From Halomonas elongata DSM 2581 (GTDB lineage: Bacteria; Pseudomonadota; Gammaproteobacteria; Pseudomonadales; Halomonadaceae): a stretch of DNA of 64,000 bases. Each line of letters starts with the position of its first letter. Position 1 is the stretch's first letter. Shown here piece by piece: positions 7,974 through 14,994 of the stretch. The stretch spans positions 3,100,001 to 3,164,000 of the forward strand of contig NC_014532.2 of assembly GCF_000196875.2 (NCBI RefSeq). The letters are read 5' to 3'. Made by a program: the position numbers and the translations under genes. The notes under the pieces were generated by a model. The model searched no databases. It saw only the letters and a program-made list of their open reading frames with translations, and was not told the DNA's origin.

Positions 7974-9206
7974 ATGCCGCCGATGCCACGCCGTTTCGCC
8001 CTAGCCCTAGCCCTCGCCCTGGCCGGCGCCGCGCTCGCGACGAGCCTGGCCGCCGACGACACCTCGCCGCTGAATGCCTCCTGGTCCGCCATCGAGCGCC
8101 AGGCCCGCGGCCAGACCGTCTACTGGAGCGCCTGGGGCGGCGATCCCGCCATCAACCGTTACATCGGCTGGGTGGCCGGGCGGATGGACGAACGACACGA
8201 CCTGGAGGTCGTGCACGTCAAGGTGGACGACATCGCCACGACGATATCCCGGATCGTCGCCGAACAGGCCGCGGGCAACGACGCAGCGGGCGCCGTCGAC
8301 CTGATGTGGATCAACGGCGAGAACTTCGCCGCCATGAAAGAACGTGACCTCCTGTTCGGGCCCTTCGCCCGCCGACTGCCGAACTTCGCACTGACATCGC
8401 CCGACGACAATCCCGAGATGCTCACCGATTTCACCCTGCCGACCGAGGGCTACGAGTCGCCCTGGGGCAAGGCGCAGCTGACCTTCTACCACGACACCGA
8501 ACGCGTCGCTGAACCACCGCGCAGCTTGTCGGCATTGCTGTCCTGGGTCCGCGAGCATCCCGGGCGATTCACCTATCCCCTGGTGCCCAACTTCCTGGGC
8601 AGCACCTTTCTCAAGCAGGTACTGCTCTCGCAGGTCGAAGACCCGTCAGTGCTGGCCGAACCGGCCTCGCGTCACGACGTCGAGGCCGTGACGGCACCGC
8701 TCTGGGACTATCTCGATGCCCTGCATCCCCACCTCTGGCGCCAGGGGCGACACTTCCCCTCCGGCGGCCCCGAACTCAAGCGCCTGATGGGCGATGGCGA
8801 GCTGTCGCTGGCCTTCACCTTCAACCCCGCCGAGCCGGCCGCCGCCGTGACCGCCCACCAGTTGCCGCCGAGCACCCGCAGCTACGTGCTCCAGGGCGGC
8901 ACCCTCGGCAATGTCCATTTCGTGGCGATTCCCTTCAACGCCCGCCACAAGGCTGGCGCCATGCTGCTGGCCAACTTCCTGCTGTCGCCCGAGGCCCAGG
9001 CCCGCAAGCAGGATATCGATGTCTGGGGCGATCCCAGCGTACTCGACATGCGCCGTCTCGATGCCGACGAGCGTCAGGCGTTCGAGGGCGAGCGTCATCC
9101 CGCGAGCCCGCCTCCCGAGGCCTTGCAACGCACCCTGCCCGAACCCCACCCGAGCTGGGTCGAGGCCCTGGAAGCACAGTGGCAGGCGCGCTATGGCAAC
9201 GGCTGA
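7974..9206 (+). CDS. ynjB: ABC importer substrate-binding protein, YnjB type
   Basis: About 410 residues with a signal peptide (basic start MPRRF, hydrophobic run rich in Ala/Leu, cleavage near AAD). The mature part begins NASWSAIERQARGQTVYWSAWGGD and continues with the periplasmic-binding-protein pattern (DLMWINGENFAAMKE, AQLTFYHDTERV, AIPFNARHKAGAMLLANFLLSPEAQARKQ). Organisation and lengths (binding protein, fused double permease, short ATPase) match E. coli ynjB-ynjC-ynjD, whose substrate is unsettled; sulfate/thiamine-type relatives exist. The start may be the ATG at 7974 or the one three codons later; AGG lies directly in front. The next gene starts 19 bp after its stop, so this is the first gene of an operon. 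Confidence 0.82.
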   Translation: MPPMPRRFALALALALAGAALATSLAADDTSPLNASWSAIERQARGQTVYWSAWGGDPAINRYIGWVAGRMDERHDLEVVHVKVDDIATTISRIVAEQAAGNDAAGAVDLMWINGENFAAMKERDLLFGPFARRLPNFALTSPDDNPEMLTDFTLPTEGYESPWGKAQLTFYHDTERVAEPPRSLSALLSWVREHPGRFTYPLVPNFLGSTFLKQVLLSQVEDPSVLAEPASRHDVEAVTAPLWDYLDALHPHLWRQGRHFPSGGPELKRLMGDGELSLAFTFNPAEPAAAVTAHQLPPSTRSYVLQGGTLGNVHFVAIPFNARHKAGAMLLANFLLSPEAQARKQDIDVWGDPSVLDMRRLDADERQAFEGERHPASPPPEALQRTLPEPHPSWVEALEAQWQARYGNG

Positions 9207-9224
9207 AGCGAGGACGAGAGCCCA

Positions 9225-10931
9225 ATGCCGAGCTTCGTGACGGCGATACGCGCCGCGCCCGCCATGACCCTGGCGCTGTTGATCCTGCCGGTCCTCCTGG
9301 GACTGGCCGGCGTGATCGCCCCGGCCTTCGGCTGGCATCCGGCACTGGGCGGCGAGACCTGGACGCTGAACCACTGGCGGGCGCTCGGCGACACACCAGG
9401 CCTGGTCGAGATGGGGCGCCTGAGCCTGTTCACCGGAATCGCCAGCGCCCTGGCGGCGTTCGTCAGCGTGGCGCTGTGCCTGGCCACCTTCCTCGAGACG
9501 CGCTTCTTCGGCACGATACGCCGCCTGCTCTCGCCGTTGCTGGCGGTGCCCCACGCAGCGGCCGCCATCGGGCTGGCCTTTCTGCTGACGCCCTCGGGAC
9601 TGGCCAGTCGCCTAGTCTCGCCCTGGCTCAGCGGCTGGAGCCAACCGCCCGACTACCTGTTTCCCGGTGACGAGGCCGGCCTGGCCCTGATCCTCGGGCT
9701 GACGCTCAAGGAGATTCCCTTCCTGCTGTTGATGAGCCTGGCCGCCCTGCCCCAGTGCCGGGCCGGGGAACGCCTGATGATGGCGCGCGCACTGGGCTAC
9801 GGGCGGCTCAACGGCTTTCTCAAGGGCGTGATGCCGGCCCTGTATCCGCTGATCCGGCTGCCGCTCTACGCGGTCATCGTCTTCGCCACCGCCAACATCG
9901 AAGTGGCCATGATCCTCGGCCCCTCGACGCCACCAACCCTGGCCGTGGCCGTGGTGCGCTGGCTGGGGGATCCCGACCTGACAATGCGTTTCCAGGCCGC
10001 CGCGGGGGCGCTGCTGCAGATCGGCGTCACCGCCGCTGCCCTGCTGATCTGGTGGCTGGGCGAACGGCTGGTCTCGCGGCTGGGAGCCGCCTGGCTGCGC
10101 GATGGACACCGACGACGCGGCGAATACCTGGGGCGAAGCCTCGGCGGCCTGGTGACCTGGCTGGCCATCGGTGTATTGCTCGCCGCCCTGGCGGGCCTCA
10201 TCCTCTGGTCGCTGGCCGGTTACTGGCCCTTTCCGGACGCCTGGCCCGCCACGCCGACGCTGCATGCCTGGCGACAGGCCACCATGGGCCTCGGGGCATC
10301 CCTCTCGAGTACCGTCACCATCGGACTGGCCGCCACCGGCATCGCCCTGGCGCTGACCCTCGGCTGCCTGGAGGCCGAAACCCATCGTCGACGGCCGCTG
10401 GGCGCCGGCGCTCAGTTGATCCTCTACCTGCCCTTGCTGGTCCCCCAGGTGGCCTTCCTGCAGGGGCTCGTGCAGTGGCAGGCCCAGATGGGGCTCGCGC
10501 CCGGCTGGCCGGTGGTCACCCTGGGCCATGTCCTGTTCGTGCTGCCCTATACCTTCCTGTCGCTGGCGGAAAGCTATCGCCGCCAGGATCCCCGCTGGCG
10601 CCAGGTCGCCGCCACGCTCGGCGCCTCGCCCGCCAGCATCTTCCTGCGCGTTCGCCTGCCCATGCTCGCCGCACCGATCCTGGTCGCCGGCGCCGTGGGC
10701 TTTGCCGTCAGCGTCGGCCAGTACCTGCCGACCCTGCTGCTCGGTGCCGGACGCCTGACCACCCTGACCACCGAGGCGGTGAACCTGGCCAGTGGCGGCG
10801 ATCGACGGCTCACTGCCGTCTACGCCCTGTACCAGCTCGCCCTGCCGGCACTGGGCTTCCTGCTGGCCACGGCCCTGCCCCGCCTGTGGTGGCGAGACCG
10901 CCGCCAGATGCTCTCCGGAGACGCCGCATGA
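9225..10931 (+). CDS. ynjC: ABC importer permease with two fused membrane domains, YnjC type
   Basis: A 568-residue inner-membrane protein with two permease domains in one chain (about 1-285 and 300-560). Each contains an EAA-like coupling loop: CRAGERLMMARALGYGRLNGF near residue 185 and PRWRQVAATLGASPASIFLRV near 460. Two-domain permeases of this kind occur in Fbp/AfuB- and YnjC-type importers. It would form the membrane channel for the binding protein encoded just upstream and the ATPase encoded just downstream. Its stop codon overlaps the ATPase start (ATGA, 10928-10931), indicating translational coupling. Substrate not deducible. Confidence 0.88.
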   Translation: MPSFVTAIRAAPAMTLALLILPVLLGLAGVIAPAFGWHPALGGETWTLNHWRALGDTPGLVEMGRLSLFTGIASALAAFVSVALCLATFLETRFFGTIRRLLSPLLAVPHAAAAIGLAFLLTPSGLASRLVSPWLSGWSQPPDYLFPGDEAGLALILGLTLKEIPFLLLMSLAALPQCRAGERLMMARALGYGRLNGFLKGVMPALYPLIRLPLYAVIVFATANIEVAMILGPSTPPTLAVAVVRWLGDPDLTMRFQAAAGALLQIGVTAAALLIWWLGERLVSRLGAAWLRDGHRRRGEYLGRSLGGLVTWLAIGVLLAALAGLILWSLAGYWPFPDAWPATPTLHAWRQATMGLGASLSSTVTIGLAATGIALALTLGCLEAETHRRRPLGAGAQLILYLPLLVPQVAFLQGLVQWQAQMGLAPGWPVVTLGHVLFVLPYTFLSLAESYRRQDPRWRQVAATLGASPASIFLRVRLPMLAAPILVAGAVGFAVSVGQYLPTLLLGAGRLTTLTTEAVNLASGGDRRLTAVYALYQLALPALGFLLATALPRLWWRDRRQMLSGDAA

Positions 10932-11560
10932 CCACCGCCCCCTTGCGACTCGACGAGATCGTCATCACGCATGAAGGAAAGCCCTTGATCGAGGTCTCGG
11001 CCCGTATCGAACCCGGCGAGATCCTGACCCTGATGGGGCCGTCCGGCGTCGGCAAATCGACCCTGCTGGCCCATGTCGCCGGTTTCCTGCCGCTCGGCTT
11101 TCGCGCCTCGGGCCGCATTCGACTGGGCGAGACCGAGCTTGGGCGGCTGCCGCCGGAACGTCGCGGTCTCGGCCTGCTGTTCCAGGATCCCCTGCTGTTT
11201 CCCCATCTCGATGTGGGCGGCAACCTGGCCTTCGGCATGCCGGCCGGCGGCGCACGTCGACAACGCCGCAGCGAGGTGGAAGCGGCACTCGACGACATCG
11301 GCCTCGCGGGTTTCGCCGAACGCGACCCCGCCACCCTTTCGGGCGGTCAACGCGCACGGGTCGCCCTGATGCGGGTCCTGCTCGCCCGCCCCCGCGCCAT
11401 GCTGCTGGACGAGCCCTTCTCCAAGCTCGATACCACCTTACGCGACGAGATGCGTCGCCTGGTATTCGAGCGCATCAGGCGCGACGCTCTGCCGACCCTG
11501 ATGGTGACCCATGATCGCGCCGATGCCGAGGCCGCCGACGGGCCGATCATCGAACTGTGA
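10928..11560 (+). CDS. ynjD: ABC importer ATPase, YnjD type
   Basis: A 210-residue nucleotide-binding subunit, about the length of YnjD and shorter than MalK-type ATPases because it lacks a C-terminal regulatory domain. Walker [10 protein letters not shown] starts near residue 37, the Q-loop is [10 protein letters not shown], the signature is [13 protein letters not shown], Walker B is [12 protein letters not shown], and the switch histidine is in VTHDRADA. It energises the importer encoded by the two genes before it. The start is fixed by the ATGA overlap with the permease gene. The 130 bp after its stop separate it from the bufferin operon. Confidence 0.9.
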
Positions 11561-11590: not shown

Positions 11591-11618
11591 TGTAAGGTTT
11601 CGCCGCCTGCTCCGACAC
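11591..11618 (+). promoter_or_regulatory. Candidate ECF-sigma promoter of the bufferin operon
   Basis: TGTAAG at 11591-11596 and CGACAC at 11613-11618 are separated by 16 bp, about 72 bp before the bufA start. ECF sigma factors usually use AAC/AAG-type -35 boxes and CG-rich -10 boxes with this spacing. This rests on pattern resemblance only. Confidence 0.35.
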
Positions 11619-11690
11619 AACAATGCCCATCGACGTATCGATCCGATGCCCGAGGGCCACCAACAACGCAAAAATGCACGGAGACAGACC

Positions 11691-11984
11691 ATGAAACATT
11701 CCATGCTGATGGCTGCCGTCATCACCACCGCCATTGCCCAAGCCGGCGCCATGGCGACCACCTACGCCGGCGACGAAGAATCCGACGAGCAGGCCATGGA
11801 AAAGTGTTATGGCGTTGCCCTGGCCGGCCAGAACGATTGCAAGGCGGGCCCCGGCACGACCTGCGCCGGTACGTCCACCGTCGACTATCAGGGCAATGCC
11901 TGGAAACTGGTTCCCGAGGGCACCTGCACCAGCATCGAAACCCCGCATGGCAACGGCAGCCTGACCGAGATCGACCGGCCCTGA
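11691..11984 (+). CDS. bufA: Bufferin-type RiPP precursor (DUF2282)
   Basis: A 97-residue small secreted protein of the DUF2282/BufA1 family. Residues 1-26 look like a Sec signal peptide ([19 protein letters not shown], then AMATTYAG). The mature part carries the four cysteines of the family: C39 in EKCYGVA, C50 in QNDCKAG, C58 in TTCAGTS and C79 in EGTCTS. In characterised bufferins (Caulobacter) cysteines of such precursors are converted by the DUF692/DUF2063 enzymes and the product sequesters copper in the periplasm; that is family knowledge, not seen here. GGAGACAG stands upstream of the ATG. A hairpin separates it from bufB, so the precursor could be made in excess over the enzymes. Confidence 0.9.
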
Positions 11985-11995
11985 TTCTGTCCAAC

Positions 11996-12017
11996 GGCTC
12001 GCCCTCCGGGGCGGGCC
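11996..12017 (+). terminator. Hairpin between precursor and modification genes
   Basis: A 9-bp stem with one G-U pair (GGCTCGCCC, 11996-12004, with GGGCGGGCC, 12009-12017) begins 12 bases after the bufA stop. No T-run follows, so it looks more like a partial terminator or an mRNA-end stabiliser than a full stop. Confidence 0.4.
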
Positions 12018-12036
12018 GCGACTCTGGAGACCTCAT

Positions 12037-12909
12037 ATGTCGATGGATGTCACTGGCCTGCCATGGGCCGCTCAGGGTATCGGCCTCAAGCATCAGCACG
12101 TTGCGGAGCTCCTGGCACAACGCGCCGACGTCGATTTCCTGGAACTGCACGCCGAGAACCACATGAGTGCGGGAGGTCCGTTCCGCGACGACCTCGCCGC
12201 CATCGCCGAGCGCTATCCCCTTTCGGTGCATGGCGTCGGCTTGTCATTGGGCAGCGCCGAACCGCTGGATACCGCCCACCTGCGCCGGCTCGTCCGTCTG
12301 GTCGACGAACTGCGCCCGGCGCTGGTCTCGGAGCATCTCGCCTGGAGCCGTCTGCAGGGAGACTGCTACAACGACCTGTTGCCGCTGCCGTTGACGGAGG
12401 AGAGTCTGGCCGTGGTGGTTCGGCATGTCGATGAAACGCAACAAGCGCTGGGGCGCCGTTTGCTGGTCGAAAACCCCAGCCTCTATGTGCATCTCGACAA
12501 CACCCTGGAAGAAGCCGATTTTCTCGCCGAGCTCGTCGACCGGACCGGCTGCGGCTTGCTGCTGGACATCAACAACGCCTACATCAGCGCCCACAACCTC
12601 GGACGGGATCTCGATGCCTACCTCACCGCCTTGCCGCTATCGGCCGTGGGGGAATTCCATCTCGCCGGGCACCATCTCGATACCGATGTCACCCCGCCAC
12701 TGCGTATCGACGATCACGGCAGTCCCGTCTCCGACGCCGTCTGGCAGCGCTATGCCCAACTGTCACGCTGGTTACCCCAGGTGCCGACCCTGATCGAGTG
12801 GGACGCGCGCATCCCGGCCCTGTCTCGCTGGCTCGAGGAAGTCGACCTGGCGCGCTTTCACCATTCCGCACATCGAGTGCCGGCCGCCACCGCGGAGGGC
12901 GGATCATGA
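12037..12909 (+). CDS. bufB: DUF692 multinuclear non-heme iron oxidase (bufferin maturase)
   Basis: A 290-residue cytosolic TIM-barrel protein of the MNIO (DUF692, MbnB-like) family, iron enzymes that oxidatively remodel cysteines in RiPP precursors. The conserved metal-ligand candidates are all visible: H65 (SVHGVGLS), H100 (SEHLAWS), E145 (VENPSLY), D177/N180/H186 (DINNAYISAHN), H208 and H211-H212 (FHLAGHH), D225-H227 (DDHG) and E254 (LIEWD). The substrate is most likely the peptide encoded just upstream. TCTGGAGA precedes the ATG. Its stop overlaps the next start (ATGA, 12906-12909), which links it to the DUF2063 partner. Confidence 0.92.
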   Translation: MSMDVTGLPWAAQGIGLKHQHVAELLAQRADVDFLELHAENHMSAGGPFRDDLAAIAERYPLSVHGVGLSLGSAEPLDTAHLRRLVRLVDELRPALVSEHLAWSRLQGDCYNDLLPLPLTEESLAVVVRHVDETQQALGRRLLVENPSLYVHLDNTLEEADFLAELVDRTGCGLLLDINNAYISAHNLGRDLDAYLTALPLSAVGEFHLAGHHLDTDVTPPLRIDDHGSPVSDAVWQRYAQLSRWLPQVPTLIEWDARIPALSRWLEEVDLARFHHSAHRVPAATAEGGS

Positions 12910-13658
12910 CCTCCCTGGCCGAGTGGCAGCAACGCTTCGCCGAGGCCCTGCGGGCTCCCGACGCCGCGGATAGCGGCCCGAGCCGGCAGCAGGGGTTCGC
13001 CGTCTATCGCAACAACGTCAGGCAGAGCCTGATCGAGGCGCTGGCCGCAACCTTCCCGCATACCCGCACACTGCTTGGCGAACGCTTCTTCACCTCCGTG
13101 GCGAACGATTACGCGCGCCATCATCTCCCCGATGAGCCACGCCTGATCCGCTACGGGTACCGCTTTGCCGACATCCTCGACAGCCTGCCGGCGATGGCCG
13201 ATTACCCCTATGTCATCGACATCTGCCGCCTCGAGCGCGCCCGGCTCGATGTCAGCCATGCCGCCGCCGCACCGCCGCTGGATGCCGAACGACTGGCCCG
13301 GGCGCATGACCCTGACGCCCTCCAGTGCAAACCCTGCCCCGCCTCGCACCACCTGATCGGACGTCATGACGTGCTCGACTTGTGGCAAGCCCTGGAACGG
13401 GGCGAAGCCGGCGCCCCTGTCGGGGCCCGGGGCCAATGGCACTGGCTGCTGGTACGCCACGGGCGACGTGTCGACATCCAGCCGGTCACGCCGACCTGTG
13501 GAGCGCTCTATCACGCCCTCGAGGCCCGACCAGCCCTCGGCGAGGCCCTGGCGGCCTGCAGCCAGCGCCATGGTCAGACCGAAACCGGCGAGGCGCTCGG
13601 CACGCTCATCGGCCTCGGTGCCCTGATGCGGCTCCATGACGAGGAGGCACCATCATGA
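12906..13658 (+). CDS. bufC: DUF2063 partner protein of the MNIO enzyme
   Basis: A 250-residue protein whose N-terminal half shows the DUF2063 pattern: QQGFAVYRNNVRQSLIEALAATFPHTRTLLGERFF around residues 28-65, then ARHHLPDEPRLIRYGYRFADIL. It corresponds to the MbnC/BufC partner that binds the precursor and forms a heterodimer with the DUF692 enzyme. The C-terminal half is poorly conserved and holds cysteines (QCKPCP near 140) that could be incidental. The start is set by the ATGA overlap with bufB, and its own stop overlaps the DoxX start, so bufB, bufC and doxX form one coupled unit. Confidence 0.9.
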   Translation: MTSLAEWQQRFAEALRAPDAADSGPSRQQGFAVYRNNVRQSLIEALAATFPHTRTLLGERFFTSVANDYARHHLPDEPRLIRYGYRFADILDSLPAMADYPYVIDICRLERARLDVSHAAAAPPLDAERLARAHDPDALQCKPCPASHHLIGRHDVLDLWQALERGEAGAPVGARGQWHWLLVRHGRRVDIQPVTPTCGALYHALEARPALGEALAACSQRHGQTETGEALGTLIGLGALMRLHDEEAPS

Positions 13659-14122
13659 AGCTTCACTTGCTCAAGCCCCTGGCAGGCTATTATCGACACC
13701 TGACACCCTGGCTGGACCACTTGCCCCTGGATGCGGTCCTGCTGCTGATGCGTGTCGTCCTCGGCAGCGTCTTCTTCCTCTCGGCCCTGACCAAGGTGGA
13801 TGCCGGCGGCATCAGTCAGAGCACCTTCTTTCTGTTCGCGAATGAATACGACCTGCCCTTGATTCCCCCTGTCCTGGCGGCATATCTGGCCACGATCGCC
13901 GAGTTCAGTCTGTCGCTGGCATTGTGGACCGGCCTCGCCACCCGGCTCGCCGCCACGGGACTGCTGTGCATGACCCTGGTGATCCAGGTCTTCGTCTATC
14001 CCGGTGCCTGGGTCACTCATGGGCTCTGGGCCAGTAGCCTGCTGGTTCTGATACTACGCGGCCCGGGCATCGTCTCCCTGGACTGGCTGGTCAGCGCCTG
14101 GCTGTCCAGCACACGGCGTTGA
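13655..14122 (+). CDS. DoxX-family membrane protein of the bufferin operon
   Basis: A 155-residue integral membrane protein with four hydrophobic segments (about 25-45, 68-90, 95-118, 122-145), typical of DoxX. Motifs are LLMRVVLGSVFFLSALTKV and LAAYLATIAEFSLSLALW. DoxX genes regularly accompany DUF2282/DUF692/DUF2063 genes (called gigO in Caulobacter gold-induced genes). A quinone- or redox-related role is suspected for the family, but its contribution to metal buffering is not established. It overlaps bufC by ATGA. About 80 bp follow before the sigma factor gene, so that pair may have its own promoter or be read from the operon. Confidence 0.87.
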   Translation: MKLHLLKPLAGYYRHLTPWLDHLPLDAVLLLMRVVLGSVFFLSALTKVDAGGISQSTFFLFANEYDLPLIPPVLAAYLATIAEFSLSLALWTGLATRLAATGLLCMTLVIQVFVYPGAWVTHGLWASSLLVLILRGPGIVSLDWLVSAWLSSTRR

Positions 14123-14200
14123 CGTCACATTTCGTTTACCCTTGTCGATGTATGGGCGCGATGGACGGTCCGATGACATCCCACGACAAGGGGGCGACTC

Positions 14201-14803
14201 GTGAACGACGGAACTGAGACCATTGCCGACGATCAAGGGTATGGAAAACGACTCGAGGCCGTGCGGCCCCGCCTGGTGTCCTTCGCCCTCCTGCATCTAC
14301 GCGACAAGGCCCGGGCCGAGGATACCGTTCAGGACGCCCTGGTGACCGCCATGGAAAAGACCGACACCTTCTCCGGACGCTCCGGATACGAAACCTGGGT
14401 ATTCGGCATCCTCAAGCACAAGATTCTCGATGCCATGCGCGACCAGCGCAGCAGCGGCCAGTGGCAGCCGCTGGATGACGAGCCCCGCGACGATGTCATC
14501 GACCGGCTCTTCCAGCGGAACGGGCGCTGGGAGCCTCACGCCCGTCCATCCTGCTGGGGAGATCCCGCAGCCACGCTGGAGAACGAAAGCTTCTGGCAGG
14601 TCTTCGATACCTGCATGATCGGCTTGCCGGACAACCTCGCCCGAGTCTTCTCGCTGCGGGAGCTGATGGGACTCTCCACCCGTGACATCTGCCACGAAAC
14701 CGGCATCAAGGAAAACAACTGCTGGGTGATGCTGCATCGGGCCCGGCTGAGGCTGCGTACCTGTATCGAAAGTGGCTGGCTGACGGAGAATCCCCAATGC
14801 TGA
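14201..14803 (+). CDS. ECF-type RNA polymerase sigma factor
   Basis: A 200-residue sigma-70-family factor with region 2 (about 20-85: RPRLVSFALLHLRDKARAEDTVQDALVTAMEK, then YETWVFGILKHKILDAMR) and region 4 (about 140-190: LPDNLARVFSLRELMGLSTRDICHETGIKENNCWVMLHRAR). Regions 1.1 and 3 are absent, hence ECF type. The linker holds RPSCWGDP, seen in sigma factors next to DUF2282 genes. The start is a GTG, chosen because AAGGGGG lies six bases upstream. The following small gene overlaps its stop and should encode the anti-sigma factor. Its position suggests that it drives the bufferin operon. Confidence 0.92.
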   Translation: MNDGTETIADDQGYGKRLEAVRPRLVSFALLHLRDKARAEDTVQDALVTAMEKTDTFSGRSGYETWVFGILKHKILDAMRDQRSSGQWQPLDDEPRDDVIDRLFQRNGRWEPHARPSCWGDPAATLENESFWQVFDTCMIGLPDNLARVFSLRELMGLSTRDICHETGIKENNCWVMLHRARLRLRTCIESGWLTENPQC

Positions 14804-14994
14804 TGTGCAAAGATGCCACCCGCCTGATGTCGATGAAGCGCGACCGCGCCCTGACACTCCGCGAGCGCCTGTCGCTACGCTTCCACCTGACGATGTGCAG
14901 CGCCTGTCGCGAGTGCGACCGACAATTCGGGCTGCTGCATCAAGCGGGTCGACACTTCGAGCCCCCGGCGGAAGACCACACCGCCGGGCACTGA
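14797..14994 (+). CDS. Small zinc-finger anti-sigma factor (ZAS-like)
   Basis: A 65-residue cytosolic protein with the anti-sigma zinc motif H-x3-C-x2-C (H30, C34, C37; C4 or C40 may complete the site), preceded by a helix (SMKRDRALTLRERLSLRFH). It has no membrane segment, so any metal or redox sensing would be cytoplasmic. It overlaps the sigma gene by 7 bp (14797-14803), the usual coupling of sigma and anti-sigma. Start could be at 14797 or two codons later. Family knowledge supports inhibition of the sigma factor; copper or gold as the signal is inference from the operon. Confidence 0.82.
   Translation: MLMCKDATRLMSMKRDRALTLRERLSLRFHLTMCSACRECDRQFGLLHQAGRHFEPPAEDHTAGH

Follow-up and report, generated by a model that had tools for sequence, protein, structure and literature searches.

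A Buf1 bufferin operon of Halomonas elongata with a predicted MseR/HrsE-type sigma/anti-sigma switch

Bufferins are peptides that, according to published work, sequester periplasmic copper by means of thiooxazoles (PMC12452194; here and below, published systems are described from excerpts of the papers cited), and Buf1 operons are known with membrane anti-sigma factors. Here, we describe a six-gene locus of Halomonas elongata DSM 2581 (contig NC_014532.2, the one contig of a 4.06-Mb genome) in which a Buf1 operon is followed by genes for an extracytoplasmic function (ECF) sigma factor and a predicted soluble zinc-binding anti-sigma (ZAS) factor. The window referred to throughout is the whole 64-kb stretch of DNA analyzed, contig positions 3100001-3164000. 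Caulobacter CC3254-3257, the sigmaF/NrsF system, shares with this locus the order DUF2282-DUF692-DUF2063-DoxX and an ECF sigma factor with a small regulon; its putative anti-sigma factor, however, is NrsF with six transmembrane segments, as opposed to the soluble 65-aa ZAS protein in Halomonas (PMC3511200). The Caulobacter sigmaF genes respond to chromium and cadmium. In the excerpt of a survey of MNIO enzymes, sigma factors and NrsF are reported in Buf1 biosynthetic gene clusters and no other anti-sigma factor is named (PMC12452194). Similarly, the gigPABT-rpoQ-rsqA locus of Cupriavidus metallidurans combines the same four operon genes with an ECF sigma factor and an anti-sigma factor, but there the sigma gene is divergent, RsqA is predicted to be membrane-bound and it was not shown that RpoQ drives gig (PMC10304878). 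The Buf1/gig operons of Cupriavidus and Legionella respond to copper and gold (PMC10304878, PMC5413113).

A preliminary description of this DNA had cited the Caulobacter operons as the known case; as regulatory precedents, MseR of Neisseria meningitidis and HrsE of Haemophilus influenzae are closer (PMC2893595, PMC7907618). The meningococcal sigmaE/MseR locus NMB2140-2145 forms one polycistronic operon that regulates itself and includes both a DoxX-like gene and the sigma gene (PMC2893595, PMC3240639). Its soluble ZAS factor carries C4, H30, C34 and C37, of which C34 is essential while full activity also requires C4 and C37 (PMC2893595). It differs from the Halomonas locus in the −10 element, in a regulon that also includes msrA/msrB (PMC2893595) and in the precursor, which we take to be of the EGKCG type, inferring this from the gonophorin of N. 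gonorrhoeae (PMC12668002). In H. influenzae, HrsE is a 67-aa cytoplasmic ZAS anti-sigma factor and its sigma factor RpoE2 controls UPF0276, DUF2063 and DoxX genes, the DoxX/periplasmic/UPF0276/DUF2063 set depending on RpoE2 under HOCl; rpoE2 itself responds to HOCl, H2O2 and paraquat (PMC7907618). Unlike in Halomonas, the DoxX cluster, taken here as the hvf operon, has the EGKCG precursor HvfA (PMC13419390), and it is HOCl-induced and described apart from rpoE2-hrsE, with msrAB in the regulon (PMC7907618). Because of what is reported in PMC12668002 and PMC13419390, the once-hypothetical genes in Neisseria and Haemophilus can be read as MNIO peptide operons. Control of an MNIO operon by a soluble zinc anti-sigma factor is thus already known; what is new here, as judged from sequence, is a Buf1 peptide operon carrying an MseR/HrsE-type switch, that is, ordinary parts in a new combination. 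Excerpts of the open-licence literature searched contained no work on a Halomonas bufferin or a ZAS-controlled Buf1 operon. The suggestion that no such product had been described from a halophile stands insofar as the papers naming Halomonas and DUF692 treat other things, but has to be narrowed, given the published bulbicupramide, a marine copper-binding MNIO peptide from Microbulbifer (PMC12538549).

We consider it likely that the ECF sigma factor encoded behind the Halomonas Buf1 operon transcribes this operon and is itself kept in check by an anti-sigma factor of the MseR/HrsE type, a small cytoplasmic zinc-thiol protein. The in silico basis comprises the gene families themselves, a motif before bufA whose exact form occurs nowhere else in the genome, and the co-occurrence of this motif with the sigma family; together, motif and co-occurrence lend support to the earlier view that the sigma factor is the operon's own. 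By reading of open reading frames (ORFs), six plus-strand genes in the order bufA, bufB, bufC, doxX, sigma, anti-sigma occupy positions 11691-14994 of the window, and the locus comprises the following features:

11591..11616, plus strand: putative sigma-specific promoter, −35 TGTAAG at 11591-11596, 16-bp spacer, −10 CGAC at 11613-11616 (motif search and relatives)
11691..11984, plus strand: bufA, DUF2282 (Buf1) precursor, 97 aa (DUF2282 92.8 bits versus a cut-off of 22.4, E 1.3e-26)
11995..12018, plus strand: stem-loop of 10 bp between bufA and bufB, which may act in processing or attenuation (folding z −2.78)
12037..12909, plus strand: bufB, MNIO (DUF692) bufferin maturase, 290 aa (MbnB_TglH_ChrH PF05114 319.2 bits versus 25, E 2.4e-95; NCBIfam NF050167 MNIO_BufB 352.4 bits versus a cut-off of 310)
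12906..13658, plus strand: bufC, DUF2063 partner protein, 250 aa (PF09836 83.8 bits versus 27.2, E 1e-23)
13655..14122, plus strand: DoxX-family membrane protein, 155 aa (PF07681 60.9 bits versus 23.6, E 1.9e-16)
14201..14803, plus strand: ECF sigma factor, 200 aa, GTG start (TIGR02943 212.8 bits versus a cut-off of 162.2; Pfam domains Sigma70_r2 48.9 bits versus 24 and Sigma70_r4_2 40.9 versus 25.7)
14797..14994, plus strand: soluble ZAS anti-sigma factor, 65 aa (zf-HC2 31.0 bits versus 22.2; NF052368 62.0 versus 50)

All six genes scored above their Pfam cut-offs and three of them also above NCBIfam cut-offs, so the operon sketched in the preliminary description, with its DUF2282, DUF692 and DUF2063 families, is real and in the order given; that description began at 11591, the first base of what is now the promoter motif. 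Its 7-bp overlap between the sigma and anti-sigma genes was likewise found. In contrast, the "ATGA overlaps throughout" are confined to two of the five junctions, bufB/bufC and bufC/doxX, with gaps of 52 bp between bufA and bufB and 78 bp between doxX and sigma. In a profile search, DUF2282 was present once in the genome. The combination of precursor, MNIO_BufB and DUF2063 protein confirms, at the level of sequence families, a Buf1 bufferin operon. A Buf2 precursor (BufA2) was considered and rejected, with NF050166 at 23.3 bits versus a cut-off of 60 and four cysteines versus six or twelve.

The cysteines of the predicted peptide, noted earlier at residues 39, 50, 58 and 79, were all kept in 22/22 DUF2282 proteins of the halomonad family, and the N-terminus resembles, on inspection, a Sec signal peptide; a sequence search of the PDB with the precursor returned nothing useful. 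The MNIO aligns with PDB entry 3BWW over residues 14-215 and 219-272. Candidate metal ligands had been proposed for this enzyme, and indeed H65, H100, E145, N146, D177, N179, N180, H208, D225, H227 and E254 are identical residues in 3BWW, and each of the eleven is present in 22 or more of the 23 copies from the halomonad family. These conserved His, Asp, Glu and Asn residues are presumably the iron ligands. As to the product, it has been argued that MNIOs that depend on DUF2063 proteins broadly install 5-thiooxazole (Gadgil et al., PMC12668002), and in Buf1 peptides the central cysteines are the targets of modification while a disulphide joins the first cysteine to the last (Antoine et al. 2025, PMC12452194). 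The mass loss previously assigned to C39/C50 is therefore to be expected at C50/C58.

With regard to the switch, the gene behind sigma encodes a 65-aa zf-HC2 protein and not the membrane protein NrsF; this holds for the position behind sigma only, since the rest of the genome was not searched for NrsF. By inspection, the protein is without a membrane segment and contains C4, H30-x3-C34-x2-C37 and an extra C40; the ligand positions C4, H30, C34 and C37 are those of meningococcal MseR. A cysteine followed by H-x3-C-x2-C was found in all 83 anti-sigma rows (which, like the rows of the 1.04-Mb locus set used below, include duplicate genomes), the C-to-H spacing being 25 in 82 of them and 30 in one. 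The anti-sigma gene also travels with its partner, lying within ∼1 kb of sigma at 62/62 sigma loci and at 20/20 further loci; it is not always directly behind sigma in relatives, and once (L176) it is on the other strand. The sigma gene shares 99% identity with its counterpart in H. eurihalina MS1 and 80% with the ones in H. elongata 153B and in H. caseinilytica. We thus predict a soluble ZAS factor of the MseR/HrsE type, and the zf-HC2 and NF052368 scores, together with the MseR spacing, bear out the earlier assignment as a soluble ZAS. The structural model of the anti-sigma factor has three helices at a mean pLDDT (the model's own confidence measure) of 82.6, and a PDB sequence search yielded nothing useful for this protein either.

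The motif TGTAAG-N16-CGAC was derived from the upstream regions of bufA in relatives and from sigma genes without a close upstream partner. In the H. elongata genome, its single exact occurrence stands 74 bp upstream of bufA, at 11591-11616, and the chance of a right-strand site within 300 bp is about 5e-5, based on the rate in sigma-lacking genomes. In addition, window positions 11592-11599, GTAAGGTT, equal the published −35 consensus of meningococcal sigmaE (PMC2893595).

Inspection of relatives reinforced the link between motif and sigma factor. Across 1.04 Mb of sigma and buf loci, TGTAA[GT]-N16-CGAC occurred 87 times, compared with 0 occurrences for an N15 and 7 for an N17 spacer, and the sites precede the sigma gene, bufA, a TIGR04283 glycosyltransferase gene, an ABC-transporter gene and several others, 12 having no called gene behind them. 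Among family genomes, exact sites averaged 4.13 in the 54 with the sigma gene versus 1.45 in the 97 without (Mann-Whitney p 2e-12, uncorrected for kinship). For the bufA promoter itself, we used the DUF2282 places of family and order, seeking the motif 40-420 bp before the domain; as sigma-lacking we counted genomes of the order set with no TIGR02943 match over the cut-off and genomes of the family set in which the window's sigma had no match at 1e-30, although weaker ECF sigmas adjoin some of the operons so classed. TGTAAG-N16/17-CG[AT]C, a final pattern chosen after reading the sigma-bearing order loci, was found before bufA at 9/18 places in sigma-bearing genomes and at 0/51 readable places in sigma-lacking ones (p 9e-7), one more sigma-lacking place lying at a contig end without upstream DNA. 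A looser pattern fixed before the order loci were read picked out the same rows (9/18 versus 0/51, p 9e-7), and the unchanged halomonad exact motif gave 6/18 versus 0/51 (p 1.5e-4). For the order outside the family alone, the count was 5/10 versus 0/38 (p 1.5e-4), two of the ten with the unchanged motif.

Adjacency of switch and bufferin operon also recurs outside Halomonas. In an order set of 145 genomes, 21 with sigma over the cut-off and 41 with DUF2282, the sigma/anti-sigma genes adjoin a DUF2282 operon in six genomes outside the family (G272, G176, G214 and G245 of one family, G222, G200), in tandem, divergent and convergent arrangements, with the motif before bufA in five of the six. At least five further sigma genes adjoin an MNIO gene in a class set of 274 genomes, one of them (G445) with a sigma just below the cut-off; among the matches listed, four have DUF2282 precursors, with the motif before the first bufA in three, and G416 has an operon for an EGKCG-repeat precursor with the motif before the precursor gene. 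Altogether, sigma/ZAS genes stand beside a Buf1 operon in at least seven other families, in several gene orders, and beside an EGKCG operon in at least one. The EGKCG operon is that of locus L221, where the same sigma/anti-sigma pair and the motif lie beside a precursor gene with EGKCG repeats in place of DUF2282.

Within the family, 151 genomes were covered, of which 54 carry the sigma gene (E ≤ 1e-30) and 19 DUF2282. Counts of neighborhoods rest on those 38 of 75 loci where the gene model called sigma: TIGR04283 and TIGR04282 glycosyltransferase genes lie directly before sigma in 18 of the 38, and in nine of these 18 the glycosyltransferase genes come straight after the ABC-transporter ATPase gene. 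It is between that ATPase and sigma that the bufferin operon sits in the window, in H. eurihalina, in H. elongata and in H. caseinilytica; in G111 it directly precedes sigma and the transporter is on another contig. As far as sequence tells, the same sigma in related halomonads is at the corresponding locus behind other genes, several of which the motif marks, and the bufferin operon takes that place here. In sigma-bearing, bufferin-less halomonads (L072, L074, L118, L125, L161 and similar), motif sites cluster within ∼20 kb of sigma, and such clusters, for example in G084, G143 and G105, adjoin the TIGR04283/TIGR04282 glycosyltransferases; further genes near these sites we take to resemble DUF302, DUF3047, DUF3179, MerF and a flavin disulphide reductase fusion.

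Several observations weigh against transcription of the operon by its own, thiol-controlled sigma factor. The sigma gene is commoner than DUF2282 and mostly stands behind other genes, and is thus not dedicated to bufferins. Half of the sigma-bearing places (9/18) are without the motif before bufA, and in G111 and G245 sigma and bufA lie side by side and yet are motif-less, G111 having CCAC for CGAC; G422, an adjacent case at class level, also is without the motif. In the own genome, one exact site is no excess over background in number, its position alone being telling, and a looser pattern has five sites; besides that of bufA, one falls in an intergenic repeat and the other three lie within ORFs of 80 aa or longer. 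A control with the reversed pattern gave a difference between sigma-bearing and sigma-lacking family genomes as well, in the opposite direction (8.7 versus 12.2, p 3e-5), so these groups differ in composition. The −10 element here is CGAC (11613-11616, followed by ACAA) and not the TCTAA of the meningococcal promoter (PMC2893595); the two promoters are similar but not of one class. The best fold match of the anti-sigma model is the zinc form of RsiW, not significant in Foldseek (E 0.83) and with a VIA Z of 7.2 (next row 2.6), where a Z below 8 may reflect a common arrangement; this match is suggestive only. Lastly, with respect to thiol stress, oxidants gave no response of sigmaE in the meningococcus (PMC2893595) and the Caulobacter sigmaF genes are not induced by generators of reactive oxygen (PMC3511200).

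A wider regulon did not emerge from the own genome, as none of the four other sites of the looser motif was convincing, nor was any among the matches listed from a one-mismatch search (128 sites versus 297 for the reversed control). With exact and looser patterns, no motif was seen within the 78-bp doxX-sigma gap that could serve sigma as a separate promoter of this type. Between 11500 and 15100, we also discarded a sigma-70 promoter at the operon ends, with no promoter-like site on either strand, and a terminator there, all terminator-like sites of the plus strand lying within genes. Upstream of the operon, window positions 7983-11560 encode a substrate-binding protein, a large permease and an ATPase, the last gene ending 130 bp upstream of bufA; we take this transporter to be YnjBCD-like. 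In relatives the first gene of this transporter carries the sigma motif (7 rows); in the own genome the exact motif is absent before that gene.

Two further observations concern the region before bufA in relatives. In L062 (the G111 locus, where sigma adjoins the operon) and L061, which are close relatives, CCAC occupies the position expected for the −10 CGAC. In L055-L058, L060 and L064, sigma-lacking halomonads of one genus, a different conserved stretch, CGTAAGTT...TTGAGCC, precedes bufA and is perhaps the site of a different regulator. As for the stem-loop at 11995-12018, its stem is also present in relatives, with double changes in three of ten pairs among six aligned sequences, three of which are identical; covariation is weak, in that several pairs are broken in two of the six sequences and the covariation term comes out slightly unfavorable. 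It might favor the precursor over the enzyme mRNA.

Under transcription by the operon's own sigma factor, zinc on C4/H30/C34/C37 would keep the anti-sigma factor bound to sigma. A thiol-reactive signal, whether from an oxidant (for example HOCl) or from a thiophilic metal (for example Cu(I)), would break the zinc site and free sigma, which would then start transcription before bufA and read through bufABC, doxX and its own gene, resulting in a self-amplifying one-operon response. BufBC would turn C50 and C58 into 5-thiooxazoles, with C39 and C79 forming a disulphide, and the exported peptide would bind copper in the periplasm.

Because the sensor is predicted to be cytoplasmic and of the HrsE type, we lean toward thiol-reactive stress as the signal. 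The strongest alternative leaves the rest of this scheme in place but makes the anti-sigma factor a direct metal sensor, with copper, gold or zinc and not oxidants as the physiological signal. The metal responses of the Cupriavidus, Legionella and Caulobacter operons and the missing induction by reactive oxygen in Caulobacter (PMC10304878, PMC5413113, PMC3511200) speak for it, and three thiols on zinc would make a plausible Cu(I) target. Yet Caulobacter NrsF is a membrane protein with cysteines that are probably periplasmic (PMC3511200), RsqA of Cupriavidus is predicted to be membrane-bound (PMC10304878), and it is for the soluble ZAS type that H. influenzae shows a link to HOCl, H2O2 and paraquat (PMC7907618), which leaves a direct metal sensor rather unlikely.

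By analogy to known bufferins, the operon probably makes a copper-buffering peptide. That the peptide instead serves chiefly as a periplasmic protectant against oxidants, hypochlorite for example, or that it binds a different metal, we regard as unlikely: in H. influenzae this type of switch is tied to oxidants and the authors of the bulbicupramide report hesitate on copper protection and saw no copper induction (PMC12538549), but sequestration of periplasmic copper with thiooxazoles is what has been reported for bufferins (PMC12452194). The sigma/anti-sigma pair might also be a mere neighbor, older at this locus than the bufferin operon that settled beside it and without any regulatory tie to it. 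This would fit the 18 of 38 loci where the pair directly follows the two glycosyltransferase genes, nine of which have these genes straight after the ATPase that precedes bufA here. It is highly improbable, however, since the motif seen before sigma genes stands before bufA both in Halomonas and in other families but at none of the 51 readable sigma-lacking places, and since sigma-bufferin adjacency recurs with different gene orders.

Transcription by its own sigma factor therefore stays our preferred view of this operon. More tentatively, and with slightly less confidence than doubt, we propose that the TIGR02943 sigma factor and its soluble zinc-thiol anti-sigma factor constitute a portable switch, repeatedly joined to MNIO operons whatever their precursor: Buf1 in eight families including Halomonas, EGKCG in the one operon read here and in Neisseria and Haemophilus. 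This would place copper-binding thiooxazole peptides within a conserved cytoplasmic thiol-stress response, with the Halomonas regulon shrunk to the operon that carries the switch.

While bufferins have been viewed as a periplasmic copper defense, the operon described here appears tied to a cytoplasmic thiol switch like that of the Haemophilus hypochlorite responder. The shared type of switch and the shared −35 element would join two literatures, that on the bufferins of Caulobacter and Cupriavidus and that on sigmaE of Neisseria and Haemophilus. What induces a bufferin, and to what purpose, may thereby become open to experiment in a harmless halophile, where a single promoter and a single operon are involved.

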